From: a virus
IMG/VR virus record: IMGVR_UViG_3300033049_000066
Coordinates: 124,001 to 188,000 of that record
Length of the DNA: 64,000 bases
Reading direction: 5' to 3' (one strand)
This document shows positions 22,812-41,158 of this stretch, piece after piece. Under the pieces are notes generated by a model. That model was not told where the DNA came from. It ran no database searches and saw only the letters and a program-made list of their open reading frames with translations. Position numbers and translations under genes: made by a program. How positions within the stretch are numbered: the first letter of the stretch is position 1; every line of letters starts with the position of its first letter.

Positions 22812-22896
22812 GCCCCGGTGGCGGAATTGGTAGACGCGCTGGTTTTAGAAACCAGTACCGAAAGGTGTGCGGGTTCGAGTCCCGCCCAGGGCACCA
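22812..22896 (+). tRNA. tRNA-Leu (TAG)
   Basis: This is a class II tRNA with the typical Leu D-arm TGGCGGAATTGGTAGACGCG, anticodon arm CTGGT-TTTAGAA-ACCAG, T-arm GCGGG-TTCGAGT-CCCGC and ACCA encoded. Confidence 0.93.
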
Positions 22897-22945
22897 GACA
22901 ACGTTCTTATTGTGGATAAATAGTAATACACAATGAGGAAGTATT

Positions 22946-23212: not shown

Positions 23213-23220
23213 ATTAATAT

Positions 23221-23295
23221 GCCCCCTAAGCATTGATGGCGATGCAGTGGTTTTGTAATCCGCAGAGGTCAGTTCAAGTCTGGCAGGGGGCTCCA
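23221..23295 (+). tRNA. tRNA-Thr (TGT)
   Basis: Acceptor GCCCCCT/AGGGGGC, loop TTTGTAA, T-arm GTCAG-TTCAAGT-CTGGC and TCCA encoded. Confidence 0.9.
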
Positions 23296-23344
23296 AATAA
23301 AATATAATCAATAACCTGTAAATCAATAACCGATAAATATACGT

Positions 23345-23677
23345 ATGTGGTCTTTTATAAAATTAGGTGGGTGGGTTGTGATCTGGAGTGTTCTCTGGAT
23401 TTTTTTATTACCGTTCCGGAAGGGCAGGCACAATTGCTTAACATGGGCAGTTGAAAGATGGGACACTGAAGGCGGGTATTTAGTTATTCGGTGGTGCCGG
23501 TCAAACAACCAGCAGTGGTTAAAATGGCCACACTTCCTCTGGATGGACGAAAAAGAATATAAACGTGTGGAACATCTTATTCCGCATCCCGAAGACGCAA
23601 AGAAGCACACGTTACCTCGACCTTGGTTTGACGGTAGACACGCAAAGGCCGATCCAAAAGGTCAAAACGAAAACTAA
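23345..23677 (+). CDS. Small membrane protein
   Basis: This 110-residue protein has one N-terminal helix (about residues 8-25) and a Trp-rich soluble tail (RWCRSNNQQWLKWPHFLW). It lies between tRNA-Thr and tRNA-Ser. The function is unknown. Confidence 0.6.
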   Translation: MWSFIKLGGWVVIWSVLWIFLLPFRKGRHNCLTWAVERWDTEGGYLVIRWCRSNNQQWLKWPHFLWMDEKEYKRVEHLIPHPEDAKKHTLPRPWFDGRHAKADPKGQNEN

Positions 23678-23695
23678 ACAAATACGGAAGATTGA

Positions 23696-23772
23696 CAGAG
23701 TGGTAATGTGCCCGGTTGCTAACCGGCGGCTGTGGAAACGCAACGGAGGTTCAATTCCTCCATCTTCCGCCA
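23696..23772 (+). tRNA. tRNA-Ser (GCT)
   Basis: Acceptor GGAAGAT/ATCTTCC, anticodon loop TTGCTAA, a long variable region, T-arm GGAGG-TTCAATT-CCTCC, discriminator G and CCA encoded. Confidence 0.9.
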
Positions 23773-23780
23773 AAAATAAT

Positions 23781-23874
23781 GGAGAGGTGACAGAGTCTGG
23801 CTTATTGTTGCAGTCTTGAAAACTGCCGGTCGCAGTAGTGTGGCCCGTGGGTTCAAATCCCACCCTCTTCGCCA
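23781..23874 (+). tRNA. tRNA-Ser (TGA)
   Basis: This class II tRNA has anticodon arm GCAGT-CTTGAAA-ACTGC, a long variable arm, T-arm GTGGG-TTCAAAT-CCCAC, discriminator G and CCA encoded. Confidence 0.92.
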
Positions 23875-23879
23875 AAAAT

Positions 23880-23963
23880 CCTGCCGAACCCAAACGGCTC
23901 GGGAGCGTCCTGATAAGGCGTCGGTGAAAATCGCAGTTGGTTCAACTCCAACCGGCAGGACCA
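23880..23963 (+). tRNA. tRNA, anticodon GAT (Ile), class II variable arm
   Basis: Acceptor CCTGCCG/CGGCAGG, discriminator A, CCA encoded. The anticodon arm GCGTC-CTGATAA-GGCGT gives GAT. The variable arm is a true hairpin, CGGT-GAAA-ATCG, unexpected for tRNA-Ile. Confidence 0.65.
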
Positions 23964-23969
23964 AATAAT

Positions 23970-24046
23970 GCACTTATAGCTCAGCCTGGTAGAGCGGATG
24001 ATTGAAGATCTTCGCGTCAGTGGTTCAAATCCACTTTTGTGCACCA
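23970..24046 (+). tRNA. tRNA-Phe (GAA)
   Basis: Anticodon loop TTGAAGA, T-arm AGTGG-TTCAAAT-CCACT and ACCA encoded. Two T-T mismatches lie in the acceptor stem. Confidence 0.85.
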
Positions 24047-24059
24047 GTTTACAAATAGT

Positions 24060-24129
24060 GATGCCGTAGCTCAGTTTGGGAGAGCTCCTGCAATGTAGGG
24101 TGTCGTTGGTTCAAATCCAACTAGCATCG
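24060..24129 (+). tRNA. tRNA, anticodon uncertain
   Basis: The D-arm GCTC...GAGC and T-arm GTTGG-TTCAAAT-CCAAC are good, and the acceptor is partly mismatched. The anticodon loop GCAATGT lacks U33 if the stem is TCCT/AGGG, so the isotype cannot be assigned. CCA is not encoded. Confidence 0.55.
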
Positions 24130-24241
24130 CGAGGCGAGGAAAAATGGATGGCAGTCTTAAATACTTGTCGAGAATCCCTTATCATTTGGCTCTGTCAGGT
24201 TGAATGGTTGGGGTAACTTATTTTAACTGATAAATAACTGT

Positions 24242-24634
24242 ATGAAAAGTGCAGAATTTATAGTAGAAGGTACAGAAATCGTTGTAGGCGATCAAGTCGT
24301 TGCGAAGCGTTCCGCTCGTGGTGGGGACTTGGGTCCAGCGATACACATGGCAGTGACAAAGGATGAGTGGGATCGTGTCAAAGGTCAACGTGCAAATACA
24401 GATATTCAATCCTACGATATTGCTACAGCTGAAACGATTGTCAATGACATGGTAAAGCAAGGTGGTGAGATCATATGGAAATCAGCAGCAGAATATAATG
24501 CTGATGCACGTGAACTTGAAAATCACAGATTTAGAAACAATGCTGATGTCCAAAGTGGATTTGCCGCAGCAATCAACAGCACACGTGATAACGCCAGCGC
24601 AACCGCAAAAGCGTCACTATCACGAATTAAATAA
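24242..24634 (+). CDS. Predicted capsid-targeted internal protein
   Basis: This 130-residue protein starts MKSAEFIVEG, the capsid-targeting pattern shared with genes at 3837, 6679 and 7095. The remainder is charged and helical. It is placed alone within the tRNA cluster. It should be processed after E9 by the prohead protease if the tag is functional. Confidence 0.65.
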   Translation: MKSAEFIVEGTEIVVGDQVVAKRSARGGDLGPAIHMAVTKDEWDRVKGQRANTDIQSYDIATAETIVNDMVKQGGEIIWKSAAEYNADARELENHRFRNNADVQSGFAAAINSTRDNASATAKASLSRIK

Positions 24635-24641
24635 CAAATAT

Positions 24642-24728
24642 AGCGAAGTATACAAGCAGTCAAAGTACTGAGTCTCATAAGCTCAGCCCGAACGGGTTCG
24701 CAGGTGCAAATCCTGTCCTTCGCCTCCA
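24642..24728 (+). tRNA. tRNA, anticodon CAT, class II variable arm
   Basis: Anticodon arm TGAGT-CTCATAA-GCTCA, variable hairpin CCC-GAAC-GGG and T-arm GCAGG-TGCAAAT-CCTGT. Position 1 (A) does not pair with position 72 (C), a feature reminiscent of initiator tRNA, though the anticodon stem lacks the three G-C pairs. It ends in TCCA. Confidence 0.6.
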
Positions 24729-24736
24729 AACAATAT

Positions 24737-24812
24737 GGTCCTTTAGCATAATTGGTAGTGCTGCCAACTCATAATTGGTAAAGTGTTGGATCGTAGCCAA
24801 CAAGGACCACCA
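24737..24812 (+). tRNA. tRNA-Met (CAT)
   Basis: Acceptor GGTCCTT/AAGGACC, anticodon arm GCCAA-CTCATAA-TTGGT and ACCA encoded. A CAT anticodon could also be Ile2 after lysidine modification. Confidence 0.85.
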
Positions 24813-24818
24813 AGTAAT

Positions 24819-24894
24819 GCCCTCGTAAGTCAACTGGATAACGGCTGGTTTTCTACACCTCGCAATGGGAGTTCGAATCTCTCCTTGGGCGCCA
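24819..24894 (+). tRNA. tRNA-Arg (TCT)
   Basis: Loop TTTCTAC, T-arm GGGAG-TTCGAAT-CTCTC and GCCA encoded. The anticodon stem has only three strong pairs. Confidence 0.8.
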
Positions 24895-24970
24895 AAGAAA
24901 ATAAAGAAAACAGAATTAAACTTGTATTTAGAGAATGGCTGGATACAAGGACGAACTATTAAAACTTAAT

Positions 24971-25045
24971 GCCCTGTCCGGCGGATAATCGGTGGCGAGT
25001 CTTCGAAACTTGCTTACAGTGGTTCAACTCCACTACAGGGCGCCA
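24971..25045 (+). tRNA. tRNA-Arg (TCG)
   Basis: Acceptor GCCCTGT/ACAGGGC, anticodon arm CGAGT-CTTCGAA-ACTTG, T-arm AGTGG-TTCAACT-CCACT and GCCA encoded. Confidence 0.82.
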
Positions 25046-25061
25046 AATAATGACGTTAGTA

Positions 25062-25919
25062 CTAAGGGTTGATTTCTGGCGGCAGGGGTGCTGATATGAT
25101 TGCGGTAGGCACATAACTTCCAACCCCAACATAATTGTTTCCATGTGAATCTTTGTTTGTTGGGCGAGTGCTAGTAACAATCACGTCGTCTACATACGAA
25201 TTTTGTGTTTGGGGTGACCCTCTCGGAGTATCTGGAGTATCGTTCCAGTAAGTATAAATGTATAATGAATTAGCGTAATCTGTAGCTGCTCTAAAAGTTA
25301 CACGATTAGTAATGTCTTTCATCAGCTTACCGTTTTTCCACACTCGAACGCGACCAGTGCCACCGTTATCAACAGATTTTGTACCGAACTTAATATACAT
25401 CTCATAGGTTTCCCAGACGCCTAGTTTTATGACGTCGGAAGATGTTCCGAACTTAGTCCATCCTAAATCGGCTCTACTTGAACCTTCGTAAATAAATTGA
25501 AATGGTGGTACGCTACCTTTACGGTTAATATACCAATCATCATATCCGCCATTTGACCCGTCTTGCCTAAAAGTTTTAATGCGTAAGAATTTTAATCGAG
25601 TGCTTGCATTATAATCGAAACCAATCGGAAAGTAGTTTCGCATTCTTACCCATATCTCGTCGCCATTTTTTAATGTGCTAGGGAATTTAATAATACCGCC
25701 CCATTCACCAAATCCTCTGGATCCTTTGGCGATCCTAAGTTTGCATGATTTACTTTGACTAGCGGCAGCGGCACTACTAACAACTGACCTAGTTGAGCTC
25801 CAGCCTGCGCATTTTTCACCATTTGATTGAGAGTCAAAAGATTGATTTATAGTCCACGCATTTGCGGTACTTGCTAGCAAACTTGTAATTAATATTATTA
25901 TTTTAAAATAGGTTATCAT
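25062..25919 (-). CDS. Secreted jelly-roll protein, polysaccharide-lyase-like
   Basis: This 285-residue protein has a signal peptide ending in STANA-W. The mature part has features of concanavalin-like jelly rolls: GFGEWGGIIKFPSTLKNGDE, IWVRMRNYFPIGF, WETYEMYIKFG, RVRVWKNGKL and SYVDDVIVTS. It is paralogous to 34310-35128 (same order of GFGxWGG, W-x-Y-EMY and VDD-x-I motifs). It may bind or cut host exopolysaccharide. No catalytic residues are certain. Confidence 0.7.
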   Translation of the reverse strand: MITYFKIIILITSLLASTANAWTINQSFDSQSNGEKCAGWSSTRSVVSSAAAASQSKSCKLRIAKGSRGFGEWGGIIKFPSTLKNGDEIWVRMRNYFPIGFDYNASTRLKFLRIKTFRQDGSNGGYDDWYINRKGSVPPFQFIYEGSSRADLGWTKFGTSSDVIKLGVWETYEMYIKFGTKSVDNGGTGRVRVWKNGKLMKDITNRVTFRAATDYANSLYIYTYWNDTPDTPRGSPQTQNSYVDDVIVTSTRPTNKDSHGNNYVGVGSYVPTAIISAPLPPEINP

Positions 25920-25974
25920 ATTAGTATTTATTAGAGAATTTTTTATTAATGATTACACAACCATAAATAAATAT

Positions 25975-26346
25975 ATGAAATACATACACGGAACCATATA
26001 CGGAATAATACCAATACCAGTTTTTTATGTTGATGATTTAGACTGGGCAGCTGGTAGATCATACGGATTTTTCATCCGTATTAAAAAAGATTACAAAGAT
26101 GATCGCGGGCTGCTCGAACACGAACTACAGCATTGTCGACAATTTTACAGAACACTAATGCTACATCCACTTCTGTACAAGTTCTCTAAAACATACCGTT
26201 ACAATTCAGAACTTGAATGTTACAGAGTACAGCTATCGTTTTCGCAAAATAAAAATCGATCAGCAAAACATTTTGTAAAATACATAACAACTTGGTATAA
26301 GTTAGACGTGTTGCCCGGCAAGGCACTGAGTGATCTTTTAGATTAG
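25975..26346 (+). CDS. Predicted zinc metallopeptidase-like protein
   Basis: This 123-residue protein has an H49-E-L-x-H53 motif in LLEHELQHCRQFYR and a downstream glutamate in NSELECYRVQ that could be the third ligand. It is compact, as in minimal gluzincin-type phage proteins. The substrate is unknown. Confidence 0.6.
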   Translation: MKYIHGTIYGIIPIPVFYVDDLDWAAGRSYGFFIRIKKDYKDDRGLLEHELQHCRQFYRTLMLHPLLYKFSKTYRYNSELECYRVQLSFSQNKNRSAKHFVKYITTWYKLDVLPGKALSDLLD

Positions 26347-26350
26347 TGCT

Positions 26351-26429
26351 GCCCTTGTATCCCCTCGGCCTCCTAAGCTGGTGAAAGGTAACTGGACACA
26401 TGCCGGTTCGACTCCGGCCAAGGGCACCA
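26351..26429 (+). tRNA. tRNA-Arg (CCT), apparently lacking a D-arm
   Basis: Acceptor GCCCTTG/CAAGGGC, anticodon arm TCGGC-CTCCTAA-GCTGG, T-arm GCCGG-TTCGACT-CCGGC and ACCA encoded. Only 7 nt join acceptor and anticodon stem, while 20 nt lie in the variable region. An alternative fold cannot be excluded. Confidence 0.6.
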
Positions 26430-26441
26430 ATTTAAAACCAG

Positions 26442-26516
26442 ACTAGCGTAACTCAGAGGCAGAGTAGGGGTGTTACATACCTCAAGTCGGGATTTCGAAA
26501 TTCCCCGCTAGTACCA
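26442..26516 (+). tRNA. tRNA-Val (TAC)
   Basis: Acceptor ACTAGCG/CGCTAGT, anticodon arm GGGGT-GTTACAT-ACCTC, T-arm GGGAT-TTCGAAA-TTCCC and ACCA encoded. Confidence 0.9.
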
Positions 26517-26520
26517 ATTT

Positions 26521-26573
26521 AATAACGTAGCTCAGCTGCTGAAAACAGCAATATAGATACGTATCCAAATTAC
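26521..26573 (+). pseudogene. tRNA 5'-half remnant
   Basis: AACGTAGCTCAGCTGCTG resembles the start of a tRNA (position 8 to the D-arm), but no matching T-arm or acceptor follows before the next promoter. Confidence 0.35.
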
Positions 26574-26602
26574 TAGACATCATTTGTATTATACTGTATA
26601 AT
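26574..26602 (+). promoter_or_regulatory. Sigma70-type promoter (TAGACA)
   Basis: TAGACA, 17 nt, TATAAT. It fixes the start of the following gene at 26632 rather than at the ATG at 26605, which would lie at the transcription start. Confidence 0.75.
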
Positions 26603-26631
26603 GCATGCTTACATTAACAAAGGAAAACACA

Positions 26632-26847
26632 ATGTCAAAAAATAACAAAGTAACTAAAATTGCCGGGATCTTGCATACACAGAAAGTGGCATCGGCGTTT
26701 CGTGTTGGTAGTCGTAAGCTAGGAAAATCAGCACATGCTATGTCTAGCGATGCGCTATTATCTGTATTAGCAGACAAATCACAAAGCAAATTTCACAAAA
26801 GTGCGGCGGATGTCCTTAGTCTGCGTGGTGTAGATTTAACAGCATAA
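26632..26847 (+). CDS. Small basic protein
   Basis: This 71-residue protein (MSKNNKVTKIAGILHTQKVA...) follows AAAGGAAAAC. Basic and serine-rich with a C-terminal helix. No family is recognised. Confidence 0.6.
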   Translation: MSKNNKVTKIAGILHTQKVASAFRVGSRKLGKSAHAMSSDALLSVLADKSQSKFHKSAADVLSLRGVDLTA

Positions 26848-26854
26848 CCAGAAT

Positions 26855-26929
26855 GGGATCGTAACTCAAGCGGCAGAGCCCCGACTCTTAATCGGCGAGA
26901 TGTGATTTCAATTATCACCGGTCCCACCA
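26855..26929 (+). tRNA. tRNA-Lys (CTT)
   Basis: Acceptor GGGATCG/CGGTCCC, loop CTCTTAA in CCGA/TCGG, T-arm GTGAT-TTCAATT-ATCAC and ACCA encoded. Confidence 0.88.
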
Positions 26930-26944
26930 AATTTAATATAATAA

Positions 26945-27020
26945 GGGTTGCTAACTCAATTGGCAGAGTACTCGGCTTTTAACCGAGAAGTTCCCGGATC
27001 GTTGCCGGGGCAACCCGCCA
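26945..27020 (+). tRNA. tRNA-Lys (TTT)
   Basis: Acceptor GGGTTGC/GCAACCC, anticodon arm CTCGG-CTTTTAA-CCGAG and GCCA encoded. Confidence 0.92.
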
Positions 27021-27025
27021 AATAT

Positions 27026-27185
27026 AGGTGTATGGCGGAATTAGCAGACGCTAAGTTATACGCAATCTTACTAGACGAGCCGCAATATTAAATTTGGTAC
27101 TGCCTACTGAATTTTATTATTGTGAATGGATACAAGGGCAGCAAAACATGCTCGTCGTGCAGGTGCAACTCCTGCTACACCTACC
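27026..27185 (+). ncRNA. tRNA-Leu-like RNA with hugely expanded variable arm
   Basis: The 5' part has a Leu-type D-arm (TGGCGGAATTAGCAGACGC) and the 3' part a T-arm GCAGG-TGCAACT-CCTGC. Between them, GACGAGC and GCTCGTC form a 7-bp stem enclosing about 64 nt with an inner CTGCC/GGCAG. The total is about 160 nt instead of 85. The anticodon is unclear, and the acceptor pairs only approximately. Confidence 0.5.
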
Positions 27186-27198
27186 TAATTTAGAATAG

Positions 27199-27219
27199 TG
27201 CCCCGGACCGGGGCACTAA
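27199..27219 (+). terminator. Bidirectional GC-rich terminator
   Basis: AGTGCCCC and GGGGCACT form an 8-bp stem with a 5-nt loop, flanked by A/T on both sides. It separates the plus-strand tRNA genes from the minus-strand gene at 27221. Confidence 0.75.
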
Positions 27220-27220
27220 A

Positions 27221-28333
27221 TTACTCGAACGTAATAATTATATCGTTAATGATGTAGCCGCCTGTTTTCGTGTGCTTAAAGAGCAGCGTATTATCGCCAT
27301 CCTTCCAGTACGAAGATGGAACAGTAAATGATAGTGAGACTGTCTTAGCATCATGTACTGCGCCGCCTTCAATGCCGAACAATATAATAGCTGGGTTGCC
27401 GTTAATAATTAATTCACCTTCGTCCTTAAAGTCCGGGTCGGTTACATTTAATGTAATAATACTATTTGAAGTAGTACTTGGTTTGCTAACCGCAAATGTT
27501 ATTGTAGCTTCCTCAGGAGCTGTCGCTGATAAACTAACTGGCAATACACCGCTGTTGTCGATTACAATTGTTTCATCTACCTCAAACGTTACAGCTACAT
27601 TGTAAATTTTATAACCAGCTGTCTTTGTATGTTTGAAAAGCAATGTGTTATCGCCATCCTTCCAATATGCTGCTGGTGTAGCAAACGATATATTAACTCG
27701 CTTAGCATCATGTACTGCGCCGCCTTCGGAGCCGAACAATATAATAGCTGGGTTGCCGTTAATAATTAATTCACCTTCATCGATGAAATCTGGATCGTAA
27801 ACATCAAGCACCATTATTCCACTTATGGCGTTACTTGGCTTATTGACCGCAAGCGTTATTGTAAATTCTTGCGGCGCAGTACCTTCTAAATCAGCAAGTA
27901 CACCAGGTACTGTTGGTACAGTTGGTACAGTTGGTACACCAAACGTAAATGTTGGCTTAGATGGTTTTGATGTGTTAATAGTTGATCGCTGTATTTCATT
28001 ACTATATCGAGATACTCTATTTTGAGTATCAGTCGTTGTCATCACGAAATAATAATTTGTGGAAAACGGCAAATCAAGTGTTGCGGTTACGTCAGTATTT
28101 GACGAAATCCAAACCTTATCGTTATACACACCAGAAGTAGTTCCGTAATGTATAGAGTATCCTTTTATTTCACTTAGCGGAAGTGATTCCCAGGTGCTAC
28201 AGTTGCTGGCAGACGCACCCTTAGGTGCCGCACAGGCGTCTCGCTCAGTTGGAATTTCCCATTTTAAAGTAAAGGGGGTTGCACTAACGCTAACGGACAC
28301 TAATAAGAGAAGTAGGGCTAAAAAGTTTTTCAT
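27221..28333 (-). CDS. Secreted multidomain protein: FN3 plus duplicated beta-domain
   Basis: This 370-residue protein has a signal peptide (MKNFLALLLLLVSVSVSA), a fibronectin-III-like domain (about residues 22-115; GYSIHYGTTSG, YFVMTTTDTQ), a VPT-repeat linker, and two near-identical domains of about 100 residues (shared DEGELIINGNPAIILFG and YWKDGDNTLLFKHTKT). It is probably an extracellular carbohydrate-binding or adhesive protein. Part of a minus-strand unit with the FN3-like gene and amidase. Confidence 0.75.
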   Translation of the reverse strand: MKNFLALLLLLVSVSVSATPFTLKWEIPTERDACAAPKGASASNCSTWESLPLSEIKGYSIHYGTTSGVYNDKVWISSNTDVTATLDLPFSTNYYFVMTTTDTQNRVSRYSNEIQRSTINTSKPSKPTFTFGVPTVPTVPTVPGVLADLEGTAPQEFTITLAVNKPSNAISGIMVLDVYDPDFIDEGELIINGNPAIILFGSEGGAVHDAKRVNISFATPAAYWKDGDNTLLFKHTKTAGYKIYNVAVTFEVDETIVIDNSGVLPVSLSATAPEEATITFAVSKPSTTSNSIITLNVTDPDFKDEGELIINGNPAIILFGIEGGAVHDAKTVSLSFTVPSSYWKDGDNTLLFKHTKTGGYIINDIIITFE

Positions 28334-28388
28334 TTAAATACCCCCTTAAACCATGAAAGAAGAGCGTTTATCCTTTCAAGGAGTCTTA

Positions 28389-28718
28389 TTAGCTCGCTGT
28401 AAAATTTACAGGTATGCTCGGTTCGACAGCTATAACAAATTCTAATTGCGCCCAGTCACTAGTAATACCGTTAATGTCAACTTCGCGCACACCAGCTGTC
28501 CAGTTACCAGCTTCAATTGGATTAGCCAGATCGGATATTGGTGCTACAAAAGATTGACTATTGGATATAACACCCATGATTATATTAAAATCGCTATCAG
28601 GAGCGCCAGTTGGCTTAATTGCTAAATCATAGCCTTTACGCTGTGAAGCGTCATATGTGCTTGAGTCAACGCGAGTTGTTGCGCCGTCCCAGGTAAATTC
28701 AGTTGGATTGATTATCAT
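28389..28718 (-). CDS. FN3-like small protein
   Basis: This 109-residue protein has a beta-sandwich pattern (YDLAIKPTGAP, GNWTAGVREVDINGITSDWA) typical of fibronectin-III-type modules on phage virion proteins. It has no signal peptide, so it may be a virion decoration or tail-associated protein. Confidence 0.6.
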   Translation of the reverse strand: MIINPTEFTWDGATTRVDSSTYDASQRKGYDLAIKPTGAPDSDFNIIMGVISNSQSFVAPISDLANPIEAGNWTAGVREVDINGITSDWAQLEFVIAVEPSIPVNFTAS

Positions 28719-28761
28719 TTTATTTTCCTATGTGATGTAACTATTTATCGTCTCTTACAAA

Positions 28762-29349
28762 TTACCAGGGAATTAATGATATTAATTTGTTAATGAAAGA
28801 TTTTTTAGTAGTCTTCATTGCTCTGTAACGTTCCCAGTCAAACAGTTTGCCGGGGTCTGTTTTACGCCTTGGTGACACATGATCGTGCCCGGCGATGTTC
28901 GCGACTGGGAATTTGTAAGTACGAAGTAATTCTTCGGTTAGTTCAATAAGTGCATCGTACTGCGCATCAGTATAGCCGCTTTCTTGGGTGGCAATCAGCT
29001 CGATGCCAAGCATCCAATTATTGCAATTGTCGTACCCGAGCCAGCGTGAACGACCAGCATGCCAGGCCTTCATCGGCAGTGGAACAAGATCGTAAACTGT
29101 ACCGTCTCGAGATATCATGTAGTGCGCAGATGCGTACATGCGATTAGGCAAATCTTTCATCTTAAACCACTTGCGATCTTTTTCCGGACGGTTTAAATCC
29201 TTAAATAATTGAATACATTTTTCAGGGTTAAATGGTTCGTCCGGAAACTGATACTTGCCACTGAAATAGTGAATTACAATGCCGTTAACTACTTTCATCT
29301 TAGATGAACTATAGCAATAATCTGGAAGCTTTTCGATAACTTTTTTCAT
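28762..29349 (-). CDS. N-acetylmuramoyl-L-alanine amidase (endolysin)
   Basis: This 195-residue protein is of Amidase_2/AmpD type. Likely zinc ligands are in VIHYFS, and the C-terminal GHDHVSPRRKTDPGKLFDW carries the second ligand set. The middle part has YMISRDGTVYDLVP. It has no signal peptide, so it needs the holin at 4931 to reach the cell wall. It should cut the amide bond between MurNAc and the stem peptide. Confidence 0.92.
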   Translation of the reverse strand: MKKVIEKLPDYCYSSSKMKVVNGIVIHYFSGKYQFPDEPFNPEKCIQLFKDLNRPEKDRKWFKMKDLPNRMYASAHYMISRDGTVYDLVPLPMKAWHAGRSRWLGYDNCNNWMLGIELIATQESGYTDAQYDALIELTEELLRTYKFPVANIAGHDHVSPRRKTDPGKLFDWERYRAMKTTKKSFINKLISLIPW

Positions 29350-29378
29350 TTTTGGACTCCTATCGAGTATTTATTAGG

Positions 29379-29407
29379 TTGACAAACAGGCAGGAAAATT
29401 ATATAAT
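29379..29407 (+). promoter_or_regulatory. Sigma70-type promoter for a leaderless mRNA
   Basis: TTGACA, 17 nt, TATAAT. Only six bases separate the -10 box from the ATG at 29414, so transcription should start at the A of the start codon. Confidence 0.8.
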
Positions 29408-29413
29408 ATATAG

Positions 29414-29887
29414 ATGATAAATCAAATTACAGGTAATTTATTTTCAGTAAAAGAAGGCTACATTATACACGGGTGCAACGCACAAGGTGTAATGGGTGCT
29501 GGGGTCGGGAGGACTATGAAATTCACATACCCGGGCGCATACAACATATATAAAAATTACATCAACAAAGCACGTGAATTAGGTGTATCCCCACTGGGAT
29601 CAAATACATATTATGCCATGAACAAATTAGTTATTATTAACGCTGTGACACAAGAATACTACGGAAATGACGGAAAGCAATACACCGATTATGATGCTGT
29701 TCGTGCTTGTTTTTATGATATAAATGCAGAAATTTTGCGATCACAAGAAATATTTGATAATATTCCCCGAGTGCTTAACTTTCCGATGATTGGATGTGGC
29801 TTTGGTGGTGGCAACTGGGAAGTTATAGAAGCTATCATAGAAAAAGAAATTAATAATAGTTTTGAAATGGTCTTATGGACTTTATAG
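29414..29887 (+). CDS. Macro-domain protein (ADP-ribose binding or hydrolysing)
   Basis: This 157-residue protein is essentially one macro domain. It starts MINQITGNLFSVKEGYIIHG, has CNAQGVMGAGVG as the ADP-ribose loop, VIINAVTQEYYG, and GCGFGGGNWE as the phosphate-binding loop. The layout is that of ADP-ribose-1''-phosphatase and de-ADP-ribosylating phage members. It could remove ADP-ribose signals or recycle tRNA-splicing or NAD-derived products. Its mRNA appears leaderless. Confidence 0.88.
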   Translation: MINQITGNLFSVKEGYIIHGCNAQGVMGAGVGRTMKFTYPGAYNIYKNYINKARELGVSPLGSNTYYAMNKLVIINAVTQEYYGNDGKQYTDYDAVRACFYDINAEILRSQEIFDNIPRVLNFPMIGCGFGGGNWEVIEAIIEKEINNSFEMVLWTL

Positions 29888-29898
29888 ATACTGAATAA

Positions 29899-29985
29899 CC
29901 CTCGGTGATGAAATTGGTAAACATAGAAGATTTAAAATCTTCCGCCTGAACAGGCTTGCGGGTTCAACTCCCGCCTGAGGGACCA
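29899..29985 (+). tRNA. tRNA-Leu (TAA)
   Basis: A class II tRNA with anticodon arm GAAGA-TTTAAAA-TCTTC, variable hairpin GCCTGAACAGGC, T-arm GCGGG-TTCAACT-CCCGC and ACCA encoded. Confidence 0.92.
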
Positions 29986-29991
29986 AACAAT

Positions 29992-30088
29992 CCAAAGATT
30001 ACGCCGATTCTCCGCGGAACGGTGAATGGATGCCTCGCTTAGGCGCAGGCTGTGAATAACGTTGGTTTGACTCCAACTCTTTGGGCCA
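29992..30088 (+). ncRNA. Atypical CCA-ended tRNA-like RNA
   Basis: Acceptor CCAAAGA/TCTTTGG, GCCA end and T-arm GTTGG-TTTGACT-CCAAC are good. The remaining 60 nt form GCC/GGC hairpins without a standard anticodon loop (TCGCTTA lacks U33). Confidence 0.5.
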
Positions 30089-30094
30089 ATTTAA

Positions 30095-30234
30095 AAGTGT
30101 ACTTAGGGGTGGTTGAATGTGCAAAGGGGCGACTTTAGCTTAATGGTAAAGCCCTCGGTTGTGATCCGAAAAGATGCGAGTTCGAATCTTCGTAGGTCGC
30201 CCCTTTGCGCATTCAACCACCCCTAAGTACATTT
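30095..30234 (+). repeat. 41-bp inverted repeat enclosing tRNA-His
   Basis: Arms at 30095-30135 and 30194-30234 are complementary over 41 positions with only wobble-compatible differences. The tRNA acceptor stem forms the innermost part, so the precursor would be a tRNA on a stem of about 41 bp. Confidence 0.9.
30128..30201 (+). tRNA. tRNA-His (GTG)
   Basis: An 8-bp acceptor (GGCGACTT/AGGTCGCC, as expected for tRNA-His with G-1), anticodon arm CTCGG-TTGTGAT-CCGAA and a slightly irregular T-arm around GTTCGAATC. CCA is not encoded. Confidence 0.8.
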
Positions 30235-30262
30235 ACGTTACAACACATGATAAATACTTACT

Positions 30263-30484
30263 ATGAAAGCAAATGAAATTATGCACGAAAGAACTAGTAA
30301 CCGCATTAAGGTACAAATGCACGAATACGGACCTATTGGTAATCGAAAATATTCATTAGTGGATATGCGAACTCGTAAGACACGAGCTACATCGTTCAAC
30401 GGACAGTTTGAGGCGAAAGCATACGCAAACAAAAGGAATTGGTTTATTAGCCCCGTTAATATAATCGAACCCGTTTCCAATTAA
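30263..30484 (+). CDS. Small basic protein, possible capsid-targeted
   Basis: This 73-residue basic protein begins MKANEIMHER, a looser version of the capsid-targeting pattern. The rest (KYSLVDMRTRKTRATSFNGQ) looks like a small DNA-binding fold, as expected for an internal head protein. Confidence 0.5.
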   Translation: MKANEIMHERTSNRIKVQMHEYGPIGNRKYSLVDMRTRKTRATSFNGQFEAKAYANKRNWFISPVNIIEPVSN

Positions 30485-30502
30485 TCAAGTTAACCTAAAT
30501 AC

Positions 30503-30531
30503 TAGACATTAGTCCTAAACGATAGTATAAT
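30503..30531 (+). promoter_or_regulatory. Sigma70-type promoter (TAGACA)
   Basis: TAGACA, 17 nt, TATAAT upstream of the AAA+ ATPase gene. Confidence 0.75.
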
Positions 30532-30574
30532 TGTACAAAGAATCATATACAATTTAACACTAACCAGGACCTCT

Positions 30575-31735
30575 ATGAAAACAAAATTCATGATCGGCGG
30601 TGATACCGTACACGTATTCAATATGAACGAAGAACTAGCGTTGGATAAACTCCCGCCACGGATCTACACCGTCCGGTTTGACCCACTACAGGGCTTTCAT
30701 CTTGGCATCACAAAAGATAAGCTTGACTTGCCTAGTAAGATTTACGGTGAGACTCCAATGCGTGTACAAAAGTGTATAGATACATATACCGATCGTACTG
30801 CATCTACCGGCATTTTATTAACCGGTGATAAAGGTACAGGCAAAACATTATTGATGTCGTTGCTTGCAAATGAAATAATTAGCAAATTAAAATTGCCAGT
30901 AATACTCATTAAAGAGGCATACGAAGGTGGTGCGTTTACAAACTTCATTGAATCCATTGGCGAATGCGCTCTTGTGTTTGACGAATTCGGGAAAATGTAT
31001 TGTCCAAATTCGAGACGCAACGAGAATGATATACCTCAAACCTCATTATTATCATTAATGGATGGGGTTGACAAAACCAAGCGTATGTTTATTTTGACTG
31101 AAAACAGCGAGCTGGACATCAACGACTTCATGCTAAATCGTCCGAGTCGCATCTACTATCACTTCAAGTACAACAAGCTTGACGAAGGCAGCGTCATCGG
31201 CTACTGCGAGGATTATAAGGTCGGCACCGAGGAGATAAGAGATATCGTAGATCTTGCTCGGCGCTCACAGGTTTTTAGCTTCGATATGCTCCAGACTATC
31301 GTCGAGGAGCACCAGCGTTACGGTACGTCAATAGGCGAGGTTGCGGAAGATTTAAATATCGACACGCGCGAAGAACAGGGCGATATGATTGAGGTGCTAA
31401 AAATACTCGAGCGTGGCACGAAAAATGAGCGTGAGATCTATGGCACGCCGTACGTCACAAAACCTAACAGTAGCTACACGTACATCAACATCAAGGATAA
31501 TAAAATTGAAAGTTCTGAGGTTGAGATGCCAACTGCAACGGCAGTGGATAGCACTGATAGCAGCGAAGATAGCCCTGTATGCGCAAGCGAGGAAAATAAC
31601 TATCGCTCCGAGTACGTCGAGGCGAAGAACTTAGCTTACGAAAAAGATGGGCAGCTGGTTTACGAAACAGAAAAATTCACCTTCATCGCAAAAGATATGC
31701 CCAAGCTTCAAACAAATTATTTGAAATTTTTCTAG
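30575..31735 (+). CDS. AAA+ ATPase
   Basis: This 386-residue protein has Walker A GDKGTGKT (about residues 84-91), Walker B ALVFDEFG (about 130-137), sensor-1-like RMFILTENS and an arginine-containing NRPSRI. An acidic, Ser/Thr-rich linker follows the core and the C-terminus ends in a hydrophobic YLKFF motif. Stand-alone AAA+ proteins of this type occur in large phages, with roles in remodelling replication or host complexes. The partner is unknown. Confidence 0.85.
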   Translation: MKTKFMIGGDTVHVFNMNEELALDKLPPRIYTVRFDPLQGFHLGITKDKLDLPSKIYGETPMRVQKCIDTYTDRTASTGILLTGDKGTGKTLLMSLLANEIISKLKLPVILIKEAYEGGAFTNFIESIGECALVFDEFGKMYCPNSRRNENDIPQTSLLSLMDGVDKTKRMFILTENSELDINDFMLNRPSRIYYHFKYNKLDEGSVIGYCEDYKVGTEEIRDIVDLARRSQVFSFDMLQTIVEEHQRYGTSIGEVAEDLNIDTREEQGDMIEVLKILERGTKNEREIYGTPYVTKPNSSYTYINIKDNKIESSEVEMPTATAVDSTDSSEDSPVCASEENNYRSEYVEAKNLAYEKDGQLVYETEKFTFIAKDMPKLQTNYLKFF

Positions 31736-31744
31736 GTAAACGAA

Positions 31745-32137
31745 ATGCGCACTAAATTATTAATTCTTGTAACTTTAACAGCACCACTATTTTTAATTGA
31801 CTGGTCGGCCAAGGAGAAGAGTTCCGGTGGTGAGGTCGACGCACTTTACTGGCACGGAGGGAGTCGCTACACCGTGAAGGACGACAATGGGGGCCTGATC
31901 ACAAGCAGAACGATACCGCCCTGGGGTAGTCCACACAACGGCAATGTCATTGTGTACAGTGATCTTGCTCCGGGAGAAAAAACTTGGTATCTCTGTGAGT
32001 GGGATTGGAGTTGGATGTACGGCACGATGGGTGGGGATGCGAATTGTGAAATTCACATTCACGGACTAGATGATATCATCCCCGGTAATTGGGATCATGG
32101 CAAATTTGGCAGAGGGTCAATCACACGCATAGAATAA
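31745..32137 (+). CDS. Exported protein
   Basis: This 130-residue protein has an N-terminal hydrophobic signal or anchor (MRTKLLILVTLTAPLFLIDW) and a Gly/Trp-rich mature part with two cysteines (LCEWDWSW, ANCEIHIHG). No family is recognised. Confidence 0.6.
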   Translation: MRTKLLILVTLTAPLFLIDWSAKEKSSGGEVDALYWHGGSRYTVKDDNGGLITSRTIPPWGSPHNGNVIVYSDLAPGEKTWYLCEWDWSWMYGTMGGDANCEIHIHGLDDIIPGNWDHGKFGRGSITRIE

Positions 32138-32157
32138 AATATCGCCAAAAAGAATAC

Positions 32158-32233
32158 AGTGACATAGCTCAATTGGCAGAGCACGAAGCTCATAACTTCG
32201 AAGACGCAGGATCGTTGCCTGCTGTCACTACCA
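32158..32233 (+). tRNA. tRNA-Met (CAT)
   Basis: Acceptor AGTGACA/TGTCACT, anticodon arm CGAAG-CTCATAA-CTTCG and ACCA encoded. Confidence 0.88.
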
Positions 32234-32270
32234 GACACTGAACAAATAGCAGTTAACTGCAGGAGGTAAC

Positions 32271-32747
32271 ATGTTCACCGTAGATGAAAAAACAGAAATA
32301 GTACAGTACTTAAAAGATATGCCCGCGAATTCCTCAGTGTATATCGGTTCTGACTCCGTGAAATACAAACGCAAGGGGTTATGGTACGCTCGGTACAACG
32401 TAGCATTCATTGTCCACATTGCATCAAAGCACGGTGGTAAGATTTTTCACACTACATCTGTCGAACGTGATTACGATCCTAAGAAGGAAAAGCCTCGTAT
32501 GCGACTAATGACCGAAGTATACAAAGCCGTAGGTGTTTACATGGAATTCGCGGAGGTACTTGAAGATTTACCTGTCGAAATCCACATCGATGTTAATTCA
32601 GATGAGAAGCACAACTCCAGCATCGTGCTGCGAGAAGCACTTGGCTACATCAAAGGAATGACCGGACTAGATGGAGTGCCTAAGCCAGATGCCTGGGCCG
32701 CATCGACGGTTAGTGATTACGGTGCCAGAGGGAAATTTACACACTAA
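32271..32747 (+). CDS. RNase H-like protein (YkuK/DUF458 type)
   Basis: This 158-residue protein has YIGSDSVKYKRKG, a strand-loop with the first catalytic-type aspartate, then FIVHIASKHGGKIF and EIHIDVNSDEKHNSS with further acidic residues, matching the RNase H-like YkuK group. It is probably a nuclease or ribonuclease; the target is unknown. A strong Shine-Dalgarno (AGGAGG) precedes it. Confidence 0.75.
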   Translation: MFTVDEKTEIVQYLKDMPANSSVYIGSDSVKYKRKGLWYARYNVAFIVHIASKHGGKIFHTTSVERDYDPKKEKPRMRLMTEVYKAVGVYMEFAEVLEDLPVEIHIDVNSDEKHNSSIVLREALGYIKGMTGLDGVPKPDAWAASTVSDYGARGKFTH

Positions 32748-32776
32748 GGATTCAATCGCGCAAGGATGCGCATTTT

Positions 32777-32852
32777 GCCGTCGTAGCTCAGTTGGTAGAG
32801 CGCAGACCTGGTACGTCTGAGGTCATCGGTTCAACCCCGATCGTCGGCTCCA
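32777..32852 (+). tRNA. tRNA-Thr (GGT)
   Basis: Anticodon arm CAGAC-CTGGTAC-GTCTG, T-arm ATCGG-TTCAACC-CCGAT and TCCA encoded. Confidence 0.92.
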
Positions 32853-32859
32853 ATTTTAG

Positions 32860-33876
32860 ATGCATTATAATGCTCGTATGATAAATACCGTTATGCCAAG
32901 ACATAAAAAAATCGCGCAAAGACATGCGAAAATTCTTAATATACAGAATCCCGCAACAGGGAAATTTGAGTTAGATAAAATTAAAACAAAATACGATAGA
33001 ATCCTTAAATACTCATTTGCGGAAATATATATTATAGACGCTGGAACTATGAAGTTCACCGAAGTCAGCGCAAACGCACTGCGGAACCTCGGCTACACGC
33101 TGGCGGAGATGCAGAAGATGAAGGCTGGTGACGTCGCACCTCAGCTTTCTGCCGGGCAATGTAACAAGATTTTTGTTGCGTTGAACAGTGGGGAAAATGA
33201 GGTCGCGAAGATGAAAACAGTTATTTTGCGCAAAGATGGATCAGAGTACAAAGTTAATCTTCGCGTACAGTACGCGAGTGGTGAAGACCCAGTGTACATC
33301 ATAATGGCGTCGGACATCACAGAACGTGACAGGTACGAAGCTGAGTTAAAAGCCCTTGCCTTCCGAGACCCCGGCACAGATTTGTACAATAGACGGTACT
33401 TCTTAGAACACCTTAGGGGAACGATAAACCATGCTAACAGAATGCACTCTCCTATTGGATTAATTTTAATCGACATGGATGATTTTAGTAAGGTCAATAA
33501 CAATTACGGACACATCGCTGGTGACAAGGTAATCTCAGATTTTGCAAATAAGATATGCGATGTATTTTCAAGGAAGACAGACGTCGTAGCAAGATACGGT
33601 GGGGATGAATTTGTAGTGCTGTGTATCGACAATTCCGCTGAAACATTAATCGCAAAATGTAACCAGCTTATAGCTCGACTAAACAAAGCATTGTACTACG
33701 ACGGTCACACAATTGTCCAAACCGCAAGCATAGGCATTTGCCACTACAACGCGAATGCTATAACAATCTCAACTGAGGATCTTATTAACGGTGCTGACAT
33801 TGCTATGTACAAGGCCAAGGCAGCTGGTAAAAATCAAGTCAAAATATGTAACAACGACGACCTCAATGAGGATTAA
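32860..33876 (+). CDS. Diguanylate cyclase with PAS sensor domain
   Basis: This 338-residue protein has a PAS domain (about residues 45-155, ending in the typical MASDITERDRYE linker) and a GGDEF domain (about 165-330). The active site is R-Y-G247-G-D-E-F251, with metal-binding D205. A canonical allosteric I-site R238-x-x-D241 lies exactly five residues upstream of GGDEF. It should make cyclic di-GMP from two GTP, with product inhibition. There is no signal or membrane anchor, so it acts in the cytoplasm. An alternative start is 32878. Confidence 0.92.
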   Translation: MHYNARMINTVMPRHKKIAQRHAKILNIQNPATGKFELDKIKTKYDRILKYSFAEIYIIDAGTMKFTEVSANALRNLGYTLAEMQKMKAGDVAPQLSAGQCNKIFVALNSGENEVAKMKTVILRKDGSEYKVNLRVQYASGEDPVYIIMASDITERDRYEAELKALAFRDPGTDLYNRRYFLEHLRGTINHANRMHSPIGLILIDMDDFSKVNNNYGHIAGDKVISDFANKICDVFSRKTDVVARYGGDEFVVLCIDNSAETLIAKCNQLIARLNKALYYDGHTIVQTASIGICHYNANAITISTEDLINGADIAMYKAKAAGKNQVKICNNDDLNED

Positions 33877-33877
33877 T

Positions 33878-33957
33878 GGCAATAATATTTAGGAATTACT
33901 ATTTGAAGCTAAAGTAGGTTATCACGGACAAGGGTGCAAATCCCTTCATTTCCACCA
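33878..33957 (+). ncRNA. ssrA: Permuted tmRNA, acceptor piece
   Basis: This is the 3' part of a tmRNA placed upstream of its 5' part. It contains the conserved GTAGG...CGGAC segment, T-arm AAGGG-TGCAAAT-CCCTT, acceptor strand CATTTCC (33947-33953), discriminator A and encoded CCA (33955-33957). CATTTCC pairs with GGGGATG at 33986-33992. TACTATTT (33897-33904) pairs with GGATAGTA (34025-34032), giving helix P2. The 28-nt segment 33958-33985 would be excised. Confidence 0.85.
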
Positions 33958-33985
33958 AAAGCATCTTTTTACAAGGGTTCTTTTG

Positions 33986-34210
33986 GGGGATGATTTCAGA
34001 TTCGACGTGGGACTGAGGATAAGTGGATAGTACGGCAACGCAGAAGTCGTGACACTTGAAGAAGCAAACTTAAAATAATCGCAAACGATTCATTTTACAC
34101 TGAGGAATTAATGGCTGCGTAAAGCGCCACCCTCTGAGGTTGAAACAGCCTTATAACCAGCTTGTTAGTCGTGCCCTATTGACGAATGAACACAATGTAG
34201 GGGACGCGAT
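33986..34210 (+). ncRNA. ssrA: Permuted tmRNA, coding piece
   Basis: It starts with the acceptor 5' strand and the conserved GATTCGAC. The tag frame begins after AATAATC at 34081 and encodes ANDSFYTEELMAA, ending with TAA at 34120-34122. A pseudoknot-like region follows that is recognisably tmRNA (GAGGTTGAA...AGCTTGTTAGTCGTG), then a CCCTA/TAGGG hairpin. The tag ends in a protease-type AA. In trans-translation, the tmRNA rescues ribosomes stalled on non-stop mRNA and tags the product for proteolysis. The exact 3' end is uncertain. Confidence 0.88.
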
Positions 34211-34216
34211 ACTTTT

Positions 34217-34290
34217 GACTCTATAGCATAATGGCAGTGCGAGGGATTGCAAATCCTTAGATCCCGATTCGACTTCGGGTAGAGTCTCCA
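34217..34290 (+). tRNA. tRNA-Cys (GCA)
   Basis: Acceptor GACTCTA/TAGAGTC, anticodon arm AGGGA-TTGCAAA-TCCTT, T-arm CCCGA-TTCGACT-TCGGG and TCCA encoded. It lies 6 nt after the tmRNA coding piece. Confidence 0.92.
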
Positions 34291-34309: not shown

Positions 34310-35128
34310 ATGAAATATGTTATCTTTTTTACACTACTATTACTCGCGGCGCCAGCACAAGCATGGGTTGTTAACGCAAATTTTGAAAACGGCAATATAG
34401 GGAGCAAAGCCAAAGGATCCGATGGATTCAATAGTTCATTTTCAAATACAAAATACACGAATGCGGTAGTACATAGTGGAAGACAGGCTGCTGTCACCTC
34501 AATAAAACAAGGTGAATACGGATTTGGTAAATGGGGTGGCTTAATAAGATTACCGGCGACCCTTGGTGAGGGTAAGCAAGTATGGTTTCGTGCGTGGATT
34601 TATTACCCGGCCGGATTTAGTTTTACTAACAATGGCATTGGGGTAAAAACATTACGGTTACATACAAAATCATCTACTGGAAGCAATGATGGCTACTTCG
34701 ATGTGCTAACTAATAAAAATGGACTCACTGTTGGGATCGAGCAAACGAGCAAAATATTTATAAAAAATAACCCAAATTGGAGAGATGTGAGCTCCGGAAT
34801 TTCAACTGGTGTATGGTATGCCTACGAAATGTATGTAAAACTTTCGTCAGTGCCAGGCAAGGGAATATACAGAGTTTGGCTAAATGGAAAGTTATTACTT
34901 AATGATACAAAAACACCGACTCTGAAATCAGCAGGGTCCAAGGCAGACTTTATATATATTTGGTCTTATTTCAATGGTAGTTCACCTAAGGATCAAAAAG
35001 CGTACGTTGACGACATTATTATTACCAATGAAGTCCCGGGCGGCCGCGATGCACAAGGAAATAGATTTATTGGTATTGGTACTCAAACATGGACTGCTAG
35101 ACCAAAACCCCCAACACCTAACGAATAA
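34310..35128 (+). CDS. Secreted jelly-roll protein, polysaccharide-lyase-like
   Basis: This 272-residue protein has a signal peptide (MKYVIFFTLLLLAAPAQA-W). The mature part is GYGFGKWGGLIRLPATLGEG-type, with WFRAWIYYPAGF, WYAYEMYVKLS, YRVWLNGKLLL and AYVDDIIITN, in the same order as its paralogue at 25062-25919. It is possibly an exopolysaccharide-active enzyme or lectin released by infected cells. Confidence 0.7.
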   Translation: MKYVIFFTLLLLAAPAQAWVVNANFENGNIGSKAKGSDGFNSSFSNTKYTNAVVHSGRQAAVTSIKQGEYGFGKWGGLIRLPATLGEGKQVWFRAWIYYPAGFSFTNNGIGVKTLRLHTKSSTGSNDGYFDVLTNKNGLTVGIEQTSKIFIKNNPNWRDVSSGISTGVWYAYEMYVKLSSVPGKGIYRVWLNGKLLLNDTKTPTLKSAGSKADFIYIWSYFNGSSPKDQKAYVDDIIITNEVPGGRDAQGNRFIGIGTQTWTARPKPPTPNE

Positions 35129-38039: not shown

Positions 38040-38471
38040 ATGAATGATAGCACTTACGAAACTAGAATAGATCGTGTCGGTAACAAGCGATGGTACAACA
38101 ATGGCAAATTACATAGAGAAGATGGCCCAGCCGTTGAACTCGCAGACGGTGACAATCACTGGTACGTAAACGGTAAAATACATAGAGAAGATGGGCCAGC
38201 TATTGAGTTCGCAAATGGTGACAAATTTTGGTACATAAATGATAAATTACATAGAGAAGATGGGCCAGCTATCGAGTACGCAAATGGTAACAAGCGGTGG
38301 TACATAAATGGTAAATTACACCGAGAAGATGGGCCGGCTATTGTATTTGCAAACGGTAGTAAGCACTGGTACTTAAACGGCAAAAGACACAGAGATAACG
38401 CACCGGCTATTGAATTTGCGGATGGCGATAAGGCGTGGTACTTAGACGGAATAAAAGTTGAGGAGTTCTAG
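38040..38471 (+). CDS. HREDGPA-repeat protein
   Basis: This 143-residue protein has five repeats of 23 residues (69 bp). It is nearly identical at both ends to 37704, so the shorter gene probably arose by loss of repeat units. The last repeat has HRDNAPA, a diverged core. Confidence 0.82.
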   Translation: MNDSTYETRIDRVGNKRWYNNGKLHREDGPAVELADGDNHWYVNGKIHREDGPAIEFANGDKFWYINDKLHREDGPAIEYANGNKRWYINGKLHREDGPAIVFANGSKHWYLNGKRHRDNAPAIEFADGDKAWYLDGIKVEEF

Positions 38472-38514
38472 TAAGTCATTGATTAATTGATTTACAAATA
38501 GCCGCAATTAGAGG

Positions 38515-38543
38515 TTGACCTTTGGCGCTATATGTCTTATAAT
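38515..38543 (+). promoter_or_regulatory. Repeat-type promoter cassette
   Basis: TTGACC, 17 nt, TATAAT with the family leader, driving the gene at 38574. Confidence 0.85.
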
Positions 38544-38573
38544 GTATATAACAGTTAGATAAAGAGCAAAATT

Positions 38574-38768
38574 ATGAATGACTTTCAGTATTACGCTGCA
38601 ATATTCGCAGCCAGTGTATTTTTAATTGCGCGACTACATACATTTTATGTACGTCGCTCCGGTATAAAAAAGACGGCTGCTATTAAAAATCGTGTTCGTC
38701 GCTATGCGACATCTCGTGTGAAAGTTTCTGCTTGGGATAAGCCTGAATTTCGTCGGAGCATAAGATAG
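38574..38768 (+). CDS. Small membrane-anchored basic protein
   Basis: This 64-residue protein has one N-terminal helix (residues 5-24) and a very basic tail. It is coupled to the following GTG-started gene. Confidence 0.6.
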   Translation: MNDFQYYAAIFAASVFLIARLHTFYVRRSGIKKTAAIKNRVRRYATSRVKVSAWDKPEFRRSIR

Positions 38769-38980
38769 TGAAGATTACAAATAACAAAGATTTAGAGCTA
38801 GCAACTGCACGGTTTGAAAAAATAGTTAATTCTATAATGCTAGATAAAGGTACCTACACAATCAACGAATTAGACAAGCTGTTAGCTGAAGTAGCGTCTA
38901 TCGAAGAACAGATTACAAAATTTAAATCAAGTAAAGTGAAGGCAACCGTACGAATGTCAGGTGTGGTCCGTGGTGAGTAA
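38768..38980 (+). CDS. Small helical protein
   Basis: This 70-residue GTG-started protein overlaps the upstream stop by one base. It is predicted coiled coil over residues 30-55. Confidence 0.55.
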   Translation: MKITNNKDLELATARFEKIVNSIMLDKGTYTINELDKLLAEVASIEEQITKFKSSKVKATVRMSGVVRGE

Positions 38981-39443
38981 GATTGATTTTCTCGGACGAA
39001 CATTACGCTGTGGGGATTACGTATCCGGCGGACTTTCAATGCATGAATTAACTAGCGTGTTTCAAGTTCGCGGATTTACTACTACAAAATGCAAAATTGC
39101 ACCGTTAGAGAATGAAAAATTAGTTCGAATGAAAAATAGCAACGATCTAATTAAACTAGACGAACAAGACGTATTACATTTGTTAAATCAGGTTTGTACT
39201 GACTTACTCGGCCAAGAACTTTTGATTGGTGATTATGTGTACGGTGGAAGAATTGGGATGGTACTACACCCGGTTATATTTGAGATAATAGGATTTTCTT
39301 CATATAAAGTGAAATTAAAACCAGTAATTTGTAGCCGTCCCGGAACCGCAGTGGACGTATTAGACGTAAGAGAAGGGTCATCCTTAATTAAGGTAGATCC
39401 AACATTAGTTACATTCAAATGTTTAACCAGGAGCAATGCATGA
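38973..39443 (+). CDS. Hypothetical protein with repeated domain
   Basis: The GTG at 38973 is preferred (8-base overlap). The protein of about 156 residues contains two similar halves: LGRTLRCGDYVSGG...F and LGQELLIGDYVYGGR...F, each followed by an I-K-x-D segment. This is an internal duplication of a small beta-barrel-like module. Confidence 0.6.
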   Translation: MSKIDFLGRTLRCGDYVSGGLSMHELTSVFQVRGFTTTKCKIAPLENEKLVRMKNSNDLIKLDEQDVLHLLNQVCTDLLGQELLIGDYVYGGRIGMVLHPVIFEIIGFSSYKVKLKPVICSRPGTAVDVLDVREGSSLIKVDPTLVTFKCLTRSNA

Positions 39444-40462: not shown

Positions 40463-41158
40463 ATGACTACAGAAGAAACAGTTGAAAAACGCCCGCTGGT
40501 ACTTTGGTCCGGTGGATTTGATAGTACCGCGCTGGTGATATCGTTATTACACGATGGTGATATTGATGTTCTGTATGTTAGTCTTGATAATAACTCAGCG
40601 CCGCAAAAGTATGAGAAAAAAGCAATTAAAAAACTAAAACGTATTATTGTGAATGCGAAGCTGAAAGGTAGTATAATAAATGAACACGCATTCGGATATG
40701 GTTATATTGACGTGCGCGACAATATGTATTCGCAGCCGGCGCTATGGGTACATGCAGCGGCGTTTGTAGCAGACAGTGAAATTCACAGTACTGTAGAAAT
40801 TGCGTACATCAAACACGATGATGCCTGGCATTTTAAAACTGAGATACAAGATGCGTATGCAGCACTAACAAAATTGATTTGCTTTGGTATTACCGTGCCG
40901 CTAAGCTTTCCGTTTGAATGGCGCACAAAAGCATCTTTGCTTGAGGACCTGCAGGATGTTTCGCAATGTGATAAAATTCTAAAAGCTGTGCGATATTGTG
41001 AGGGAAGAGAGGCCGCTCCGTGTGGCGAATGCGCTTCGTGTAAGCGTCACATAAGCGAGCTACATACTGCCCCTCGGCTAATTAGTGTTGACATGACCAA
41101 CGAGGTCGTATCACGTCAAGAGACAGAAAATTTAAAGGAGACAGAAAATGTCAAATGA
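40463..41158 (+). CDS. QueC-like PP-loop ATPase
   Basis: This 231-residue protein has the PP-loop SGGFDST (residues 16-22) and a C-terminal zinc site C-E-G-R-E-x2-P-C-G-E-C-x2-C (about 182-197), both hallmarks of 7-cyano-7-deazaguanine synthase. QueC converts CDG to preQ0 for queuosine or for deazaguanine DNA modification. No QueD, QueE, FolE or transglycosylase gene is visible here, so partners would lie elsewhere or come from the host. The middle part diverges from housekeeping QueC. Confidence 0.75.
   Translation: MTTEETVEKRPLVLWSGGFDSTALVISLLHDGDIDVLYVSLDNNSAPQKYEKKAIKKLKRIIVNAKLKGSIINEHAFGYGYIDVRDNMYSQPALWVHAAAFVADSEIHSTVEIAYIKHDDAWHFKTEIQDAYAALTKLICFGITVPLSFPFEWRTKASLLEDLQDVSQCDKILKAVRYCEGREAAPCGECASCKRHISELHTAPRLISVDMTNEVVSRQETENLKETENVK

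Follow-up and report, generated by a model that had tools for sequence, protein, structure and literature searches.

A jumbo tailed phage with a divergent, circularly permuted tmRNA gene in its tRNA array

Just before the last gene of its tRNA array, a jumbo phage carries a stretch in which the two halves of a tmRNA appear in reverse order, which raises the question of whether the virus has a ribosome-rescue RNA of its own and what it would use it for. tmRNA frees stuck ribosomes and tags the unfinished proteins for destruction; the permuted forms are known to be processed into two pieces and charged with alanine, and to enter the ribosome with the help of SmpB, where they serve tagging. The window, i.e., the whole 64,000-nt stretch analysed here, corresponds to positions 124001-188000 of a 293,278-nt IMG/VR virus record, in agreement with the first-pass annotation, which had assigned the gene to a phage.

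The Rfam model RF04321 (tmRNA_permuted, gathering score 47 bits) matches the window at 33897-34122 (+) with 81.7 bits (E 4.4e-14 in the 64-kb search). The alignment spans model positions 1-213, i.e., the model from end to end, and the match was reproduced when the local stretch alone was searched. The locus is thus an ssrA (tmRNA) gene that is complete, circularly permuted and divergent (Table 1). A circularly permuted, two-piece tmRNA had been proposed earlier from the letters alone, with an Infernal search against Rfam named as its check, and both the full-length match and the helices, which lie where they had been drawn, uphold that proposal. Among 399 bacterial genomes of one phylum, that to which a gammaproteobacterial MAG belongs, most permuted tmRNA matches over the cut-off lie at 113-162 bits and a second group lies at about 50-65; other viral permuted genes score 57-147 bits. 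Since 81.7 bits is clearly over the threshold and below most bacterial permuted genes, we regard the gene as real but divergent. ARAGORN called 25 tRNAs over the window and no tmRNA. Pairing of the P2 strands by itself is not beyond chance (119 of 2000 shuffles were equal or better) and an unconstrained two-strand fold of both pieces is unremarkable; neither being exceptional, both were dropped as stand-alone evidence, and the identification therefore rests on the covariance-model score, which is decisive against chance.

Table 1. Features of the permuted tmRNA locus (coordinates of the window)
Feature	Position	Strand	Basis
Permuted tmRNA gene: acceptor half, intervening segment, coding half to tag stop	33897..34122	+	RF04321 extent
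P2 helix, 5' strand TACTATTT	33897..33904	+	8/8 pairs with 34025-34032
T-arm AAGGG-TGCAAAT-CCCTT	33930..33946	+	paired in RF04321 alignment, letters off consensus
Acceptor stem P1, 3' strand CATTTCC	33947..33953	+	7/7 pairs with 33986-33992, including G3:U70
Discriminator A, followed by CCA in the DNA; predicted 3' terminus of acceptor piece	33954..33957	+	sequence ACCA
Intervening segment (28 nt), predicted to be cut out	33958..33985	+	sequence
Acceptor stem P1, 5' strand GGGGATG; coding piece predicted to start here	33986..33992	+	pairing
D-arm-like segment ATTTCAGATTCGAC	33993..34006	+	RF04321 alignment insertion, one base over consensus
P2 helix, 3' strand GGATAGTA	34025..34032	+	8/8 pairs with 33897-33904
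Tag frame ANDSFYTEELMAA, closed by TAA; GCA at 34081 is the resume codon	34081..34122	+	translation
Stable hairpin after tag, likely 3' end of coding piece (inferred)	34168..34209	+	MFE fold of 34122-34212, -23 kcal/mol
tRNA-Cys (gca), array end	34217..34290	+	ARAGORN and Rfam

The anatomy is that of a full two-piece RNA. The acceptor strands pair at every position across the intervening segment, the P2 strands do so at the homologous place, and the tag frame translates to exactly the peptide that the first-pass annotation had given for it. Gaps of 4-126 nt separate the halves in other permuted genes. GGAC (33926-33929) precedes the T-arm, whose stem (33930-33934/33942-33946, AAGGG/CCCTT) keeps its pairing despite non-consensus letters. 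The alanine-identity pair G3:U70 is found here and in 116/116 genes compared, comparators that were chosen by stem pairing, so that percentages at paired positions are not evidence, with G:U not being a selection criterion. An A at position -4 of the resume codon is likewise shared (54/58 viral and 44/46 bacterial genes), and the intact tag frame gives ANDSFYTEELMAA, with a hydrophobic AA end. Where a pseudoknot would be expected before the tag, ordinary folding yields only a four-pair stem, and the RF04321 model itself includes no pseudoknots.

The tag had also been likened to those of Alphaproteobacteria, an affinity that proved weak: apart from a shared ELMAA end, T-loop, D-arm and tag start all differ from the alpha type. 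Among 46 bacterial comparators, mostly of this type, the T-loop reads GGC[G/A]GTA and the tag starts with ANDN in 43 each, and 41 have the D-arm GGATCGAC; the window gene instead has the T-loop TGCAAAT, the D-arm AGATTCGAC and the tag start ANDS, and thus lacks the alpha_tmRNA signature in these three elements. ELMAA ends the window tag and one bacterial tag, ANDNFAEGELMAA (L377); as a whole, the window tag is unlike every bacterial tag compared. The only older Rfam subtype model listed was beta_tmRNA (35.7 bits against a cut-off of 84, tRNA domain only), in an output that hides overlapping lower clan matches, possibly including other subtype models. In a FastTree phylogeny of about 200 nt, a rough tree with a short alignment and poor sampling of Betaproteobacteria and cyanobacteria, the gene pairs with that of the viral contig L264 (support 0.89), and the two sit inside a 17-member viral group (0.98) with no bacterial members. 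This 8.5-kb contig (L264, G427) has two permuted tmRNA matches, at 670-847 and 6623-6873. A DNA pattern of the acceptor half found nothing in GTDB contigs, and the GTDB matches to the tag pattern were rejected as bacterial neighbours, being only two standard one-piece gammaproteobacterial tmRNAs. Judged by these letters, the window tmRNA is probably not alphaproteobacterial in any simple sense. Phages of Alphaproteobacteria can carry alpha-type tmRNAs, as RcXuper and Phosso do.

The gene belongs to a tRNA array (18923-34290) that runs in one direction, and lies near its end: it starts 20 nt past a PAS-GGDEF gene (32860-33876) and stops before tRNA-Cys, a neighbour that had been correctly named at the outset. 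An RlaP-like nucleotidyltransferase and a T4-type RNA ligase 1 are encoded in the window as well. A search of the record for SmpB gave nothing, and Rfam showed no riboswitch at the array. DNA-level relatives were absent among the named phages of the phage collection. The nearest viral contig, G001 (344 kb), shares the array ATPase (63% identity) and ClpX (74%), and its own tRNA array surrounds the same ATPase as the array of the window. No permuted tmRNA scored above the cut-off in the relatives G001-G003 (a 20.9-bit hit in G003, which covers a tRNA-like stretch only, was rejected), nor did any standard tmRNA in the relatives and the named phages.

Several other genes deserve mention in their own right. 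The PAS-GGDEF protein (32860-33876, +) has an intact GGDEF motif (PF00990, 140.8 bits) and is a probable phage diguanylate cyclase, and directly 3' of tRNA-Cys a polysaccharide lyase-like protein is encoded (34310-35128, +; PF14099, 31.2 bits against a cut-off of 29.9). Genes of NAD metabolism at 46429-47508, 48787-50253 and 11265-12086 (all +), encoding a cytidyltransferase-NUDIX protein, a NAMPT-like phosphoribosyltransferase and a NAD kinase-like protein, could possibly replenish NAD against an NAD-depleting defence. A QueC-like protein (40463-41158, +; phrog_1550, weak PF06508) hints at a possible 7-deazaguanine DNA modification. Outside the window, the record has a tRNA with the ochre-suppressor-like anticodon UUA (51 bits; L036:14659-14732, equal to G000:C1:114659-114732); L015:9509-9586 is a further such position, and a relative has one too. 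Because of this anticodon, recoding of TAA was considered as a threat to the stop of the tag and rejected, TAA being the commonest stop of this phage and coding density under table 11 already high; global TAA recoding is not supported.

What would the phage gain from such an RNA? Very probably, we think, this complete permuted ssrA of a jumbo tailed phage serves ordinary trans-translation, with the upkeep of ribosomes as its likely benefit. If the gene is expressed, tRNA-processing enzymes would cut the transcript in two, giving an acceptor piece whose CCA ends at 33957 and a coding piece that begins at 33986; the acceptor stem and P2 would hold the two together. Charged with alanine, the tmRNA would be delivered by EF-Tu and SmpB to ribosomes stalled on broken mRNA; as the record has no detected SmpB, that of the host would be needed. 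ANDSFYTEELMAA would then be added to the product, marking it for Clp-type proteases, and ribosomes would stay usable while infection breaks mRNA and tRNA. We infer this benefit from the neighbours, i.e., the 25 tRNAs, RNA ligase 1 and the RlaP-like nucleotidyltransferase, which all point to the upkeep of translation.

The same RNA might mainly compete with, or replace, the tmRNA of the host by occupying SmpB and stalled ribosomes and by redirecting degradation through its own tag. In E. coli, expression of a tRNA-like tmRNA of phage DS6A, which has no tag frame, inhibits the endogenous tmRNA (PMC11915505), and the difference of the window tag from all bacterial tags compared would fit such a role. 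But the window gene, in contrast to the DS6A form, has both a complete tag frame and the resume signal; this speaks for working trans-translation and makes competition or replacement an unlikely main function.

Who would read the tag is a related question, because the record also encodes, outside the window, both parts of a Clp protease. ClpP (195 aa; G000:C1 ~59795-60382, L384:1462-2049) matches PF00574 with 237.6 bits and NF001368 with 274.3 (cut-off 249), and alignment to a solved ClpP shows its triad Ser99, His124 and Asp173 to be kept. ClpX (382 aa; G000:C1 ~38218-39366, L393:1495-2643) exceeds both equivalog cut-offs and keeps the GYVG and ClpP-docking IGF motifs. A closed pathway, in which the tag of the phage tmRNA is read by the phage ClpX and ClpP, is therefore conceivable; the AA end of the tag would suit it, and tmRNA and ClpX occur together in contig G016 and phage Phosso as well. 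However, SPKSMGQP stands in place of the cellular GGRKHP loop in the phage ClpX, and its pore-2 Thr is replaced by Asn; both positions contact the ssrA tag (PMC7652416). The RKH-loop residues and the pore-2 Thr are also lost in ClpX of G001, whereas Atu_ph07 and G016 keep GGRKN. Moreover, G001 retains ClpX and ClpP with no detected tmRNA, as does Atu_ph07, and the three genes lie far apart in our record. The closed pathway is thus possible but not supported, and we consider it improbable. It is more parsimonious to assign other substrates to the phage ClpXP and the reading of the tag to host proteases. Equally doubtful is a disposal line of the phage in which its own tag is read by, or deliberately hidden from, the loop-altered ClpXP; if true, what happens to a tagged protein during infection would depend on whether a phage or a host protease acts on it. 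In some jumbo phages tmRNA is encoded along with both ClpX and ClpP, and here ClpX has lost known ssrA-reading residues, which makes this a testable question.

Most unlikely is the reading that the gene was acquired from a host and is now decaying or inactive. Its low family score, its patchy presence in relatives and the one inserted base of its D-arm-like segment would fit, but both halves are intact, as are the T-stem, P1, P2, the CCA, the identity pair and the tag frame; the stems are off consensus yet still paired, and eight-base D segments are present in other viral permuted genes as well.

Trans-translation thus remains our preferred reading, and the gene joins a known class. The first-pass annotation had called a permuted tmRNA in a phage striking, which does not hold: two-piece tmRNAs of phages are published and abundant in IMG/VR. 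The phage Melnitz carries a two-piece ssrA, and ARAGORN called 53 two-piece structures among phage genomes (PMC9004378); a tmRNA database holds 79 unique phage sequences (PMC11915505), and huge phages with tmRNAs and SmpB have been described by Al-Shayeb et al. (PMC7162821). Pattern scans of IMG/VR together with the named phages gave at least 70 distinct permuted tmRNA genes built to one plan, the window gene included; a few of the small contigs in this set may be bacterial DNA filed as viral. Nor is the co-occurrence of tmRNA and ClpX in phages new, since ClpX-like genes are common (299 matching phage records) and phage AP-J-162 was published with both (PMC11242549). The phage permuted tmRNA is therefore already known, and the window gene adds a divergent member to it. 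As ARAGORN is blind to this divergent tmRNA, phage counts based on it are probably too low. Unannotated permuted tmRNAs were also seen in XacN1, a phage of the gammaproteobacterium Xanthomonas, in two copies (AP018399.1:37231-37530 and 356026-356325), in RcXuper (OP186293.1:3259-3561) and in RpAliso (OR257569.1:2895-3116).

Compared with known systems, the gene shares with the bacterial permuted tmRNAs (RF04321, which merges RF01849, RF01850 and RF01851; PMC11915505) the order of the halves, P1, the T-arm, the encoded CCA, G3:U70, the resume signal and the AA end of the tag; it differs from most bacterial members in its lower score, in a T-loop, D-arm and tag start that are not of the alpha type, and in being phage-borne. 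The ssrA genes of Melnitz and related marine phages (PMC9004378) are, like ours, complete permuted tmRNAs of tailed phages with an intact tag frame, and for neither is a nearby integrase claimed; that of Melnitz, a phage of OM43, clusters with SAR11 and is associated with a glutamine riboswitch, whereas ours is placed in a large tRNA array. Among giant phages, Phosso, XacN1 and the contig G016 have a permuted tmRNA as well, accompanied by ClpX in Phosso and G016. The tmRNA of Phosso differs from ours in being of the alpha type, with the tag ANDNVSTKVALAA, and ClpX of G016, unlike that of the window phage, keeps the pore-2 Thr along with its GGRKN loop.
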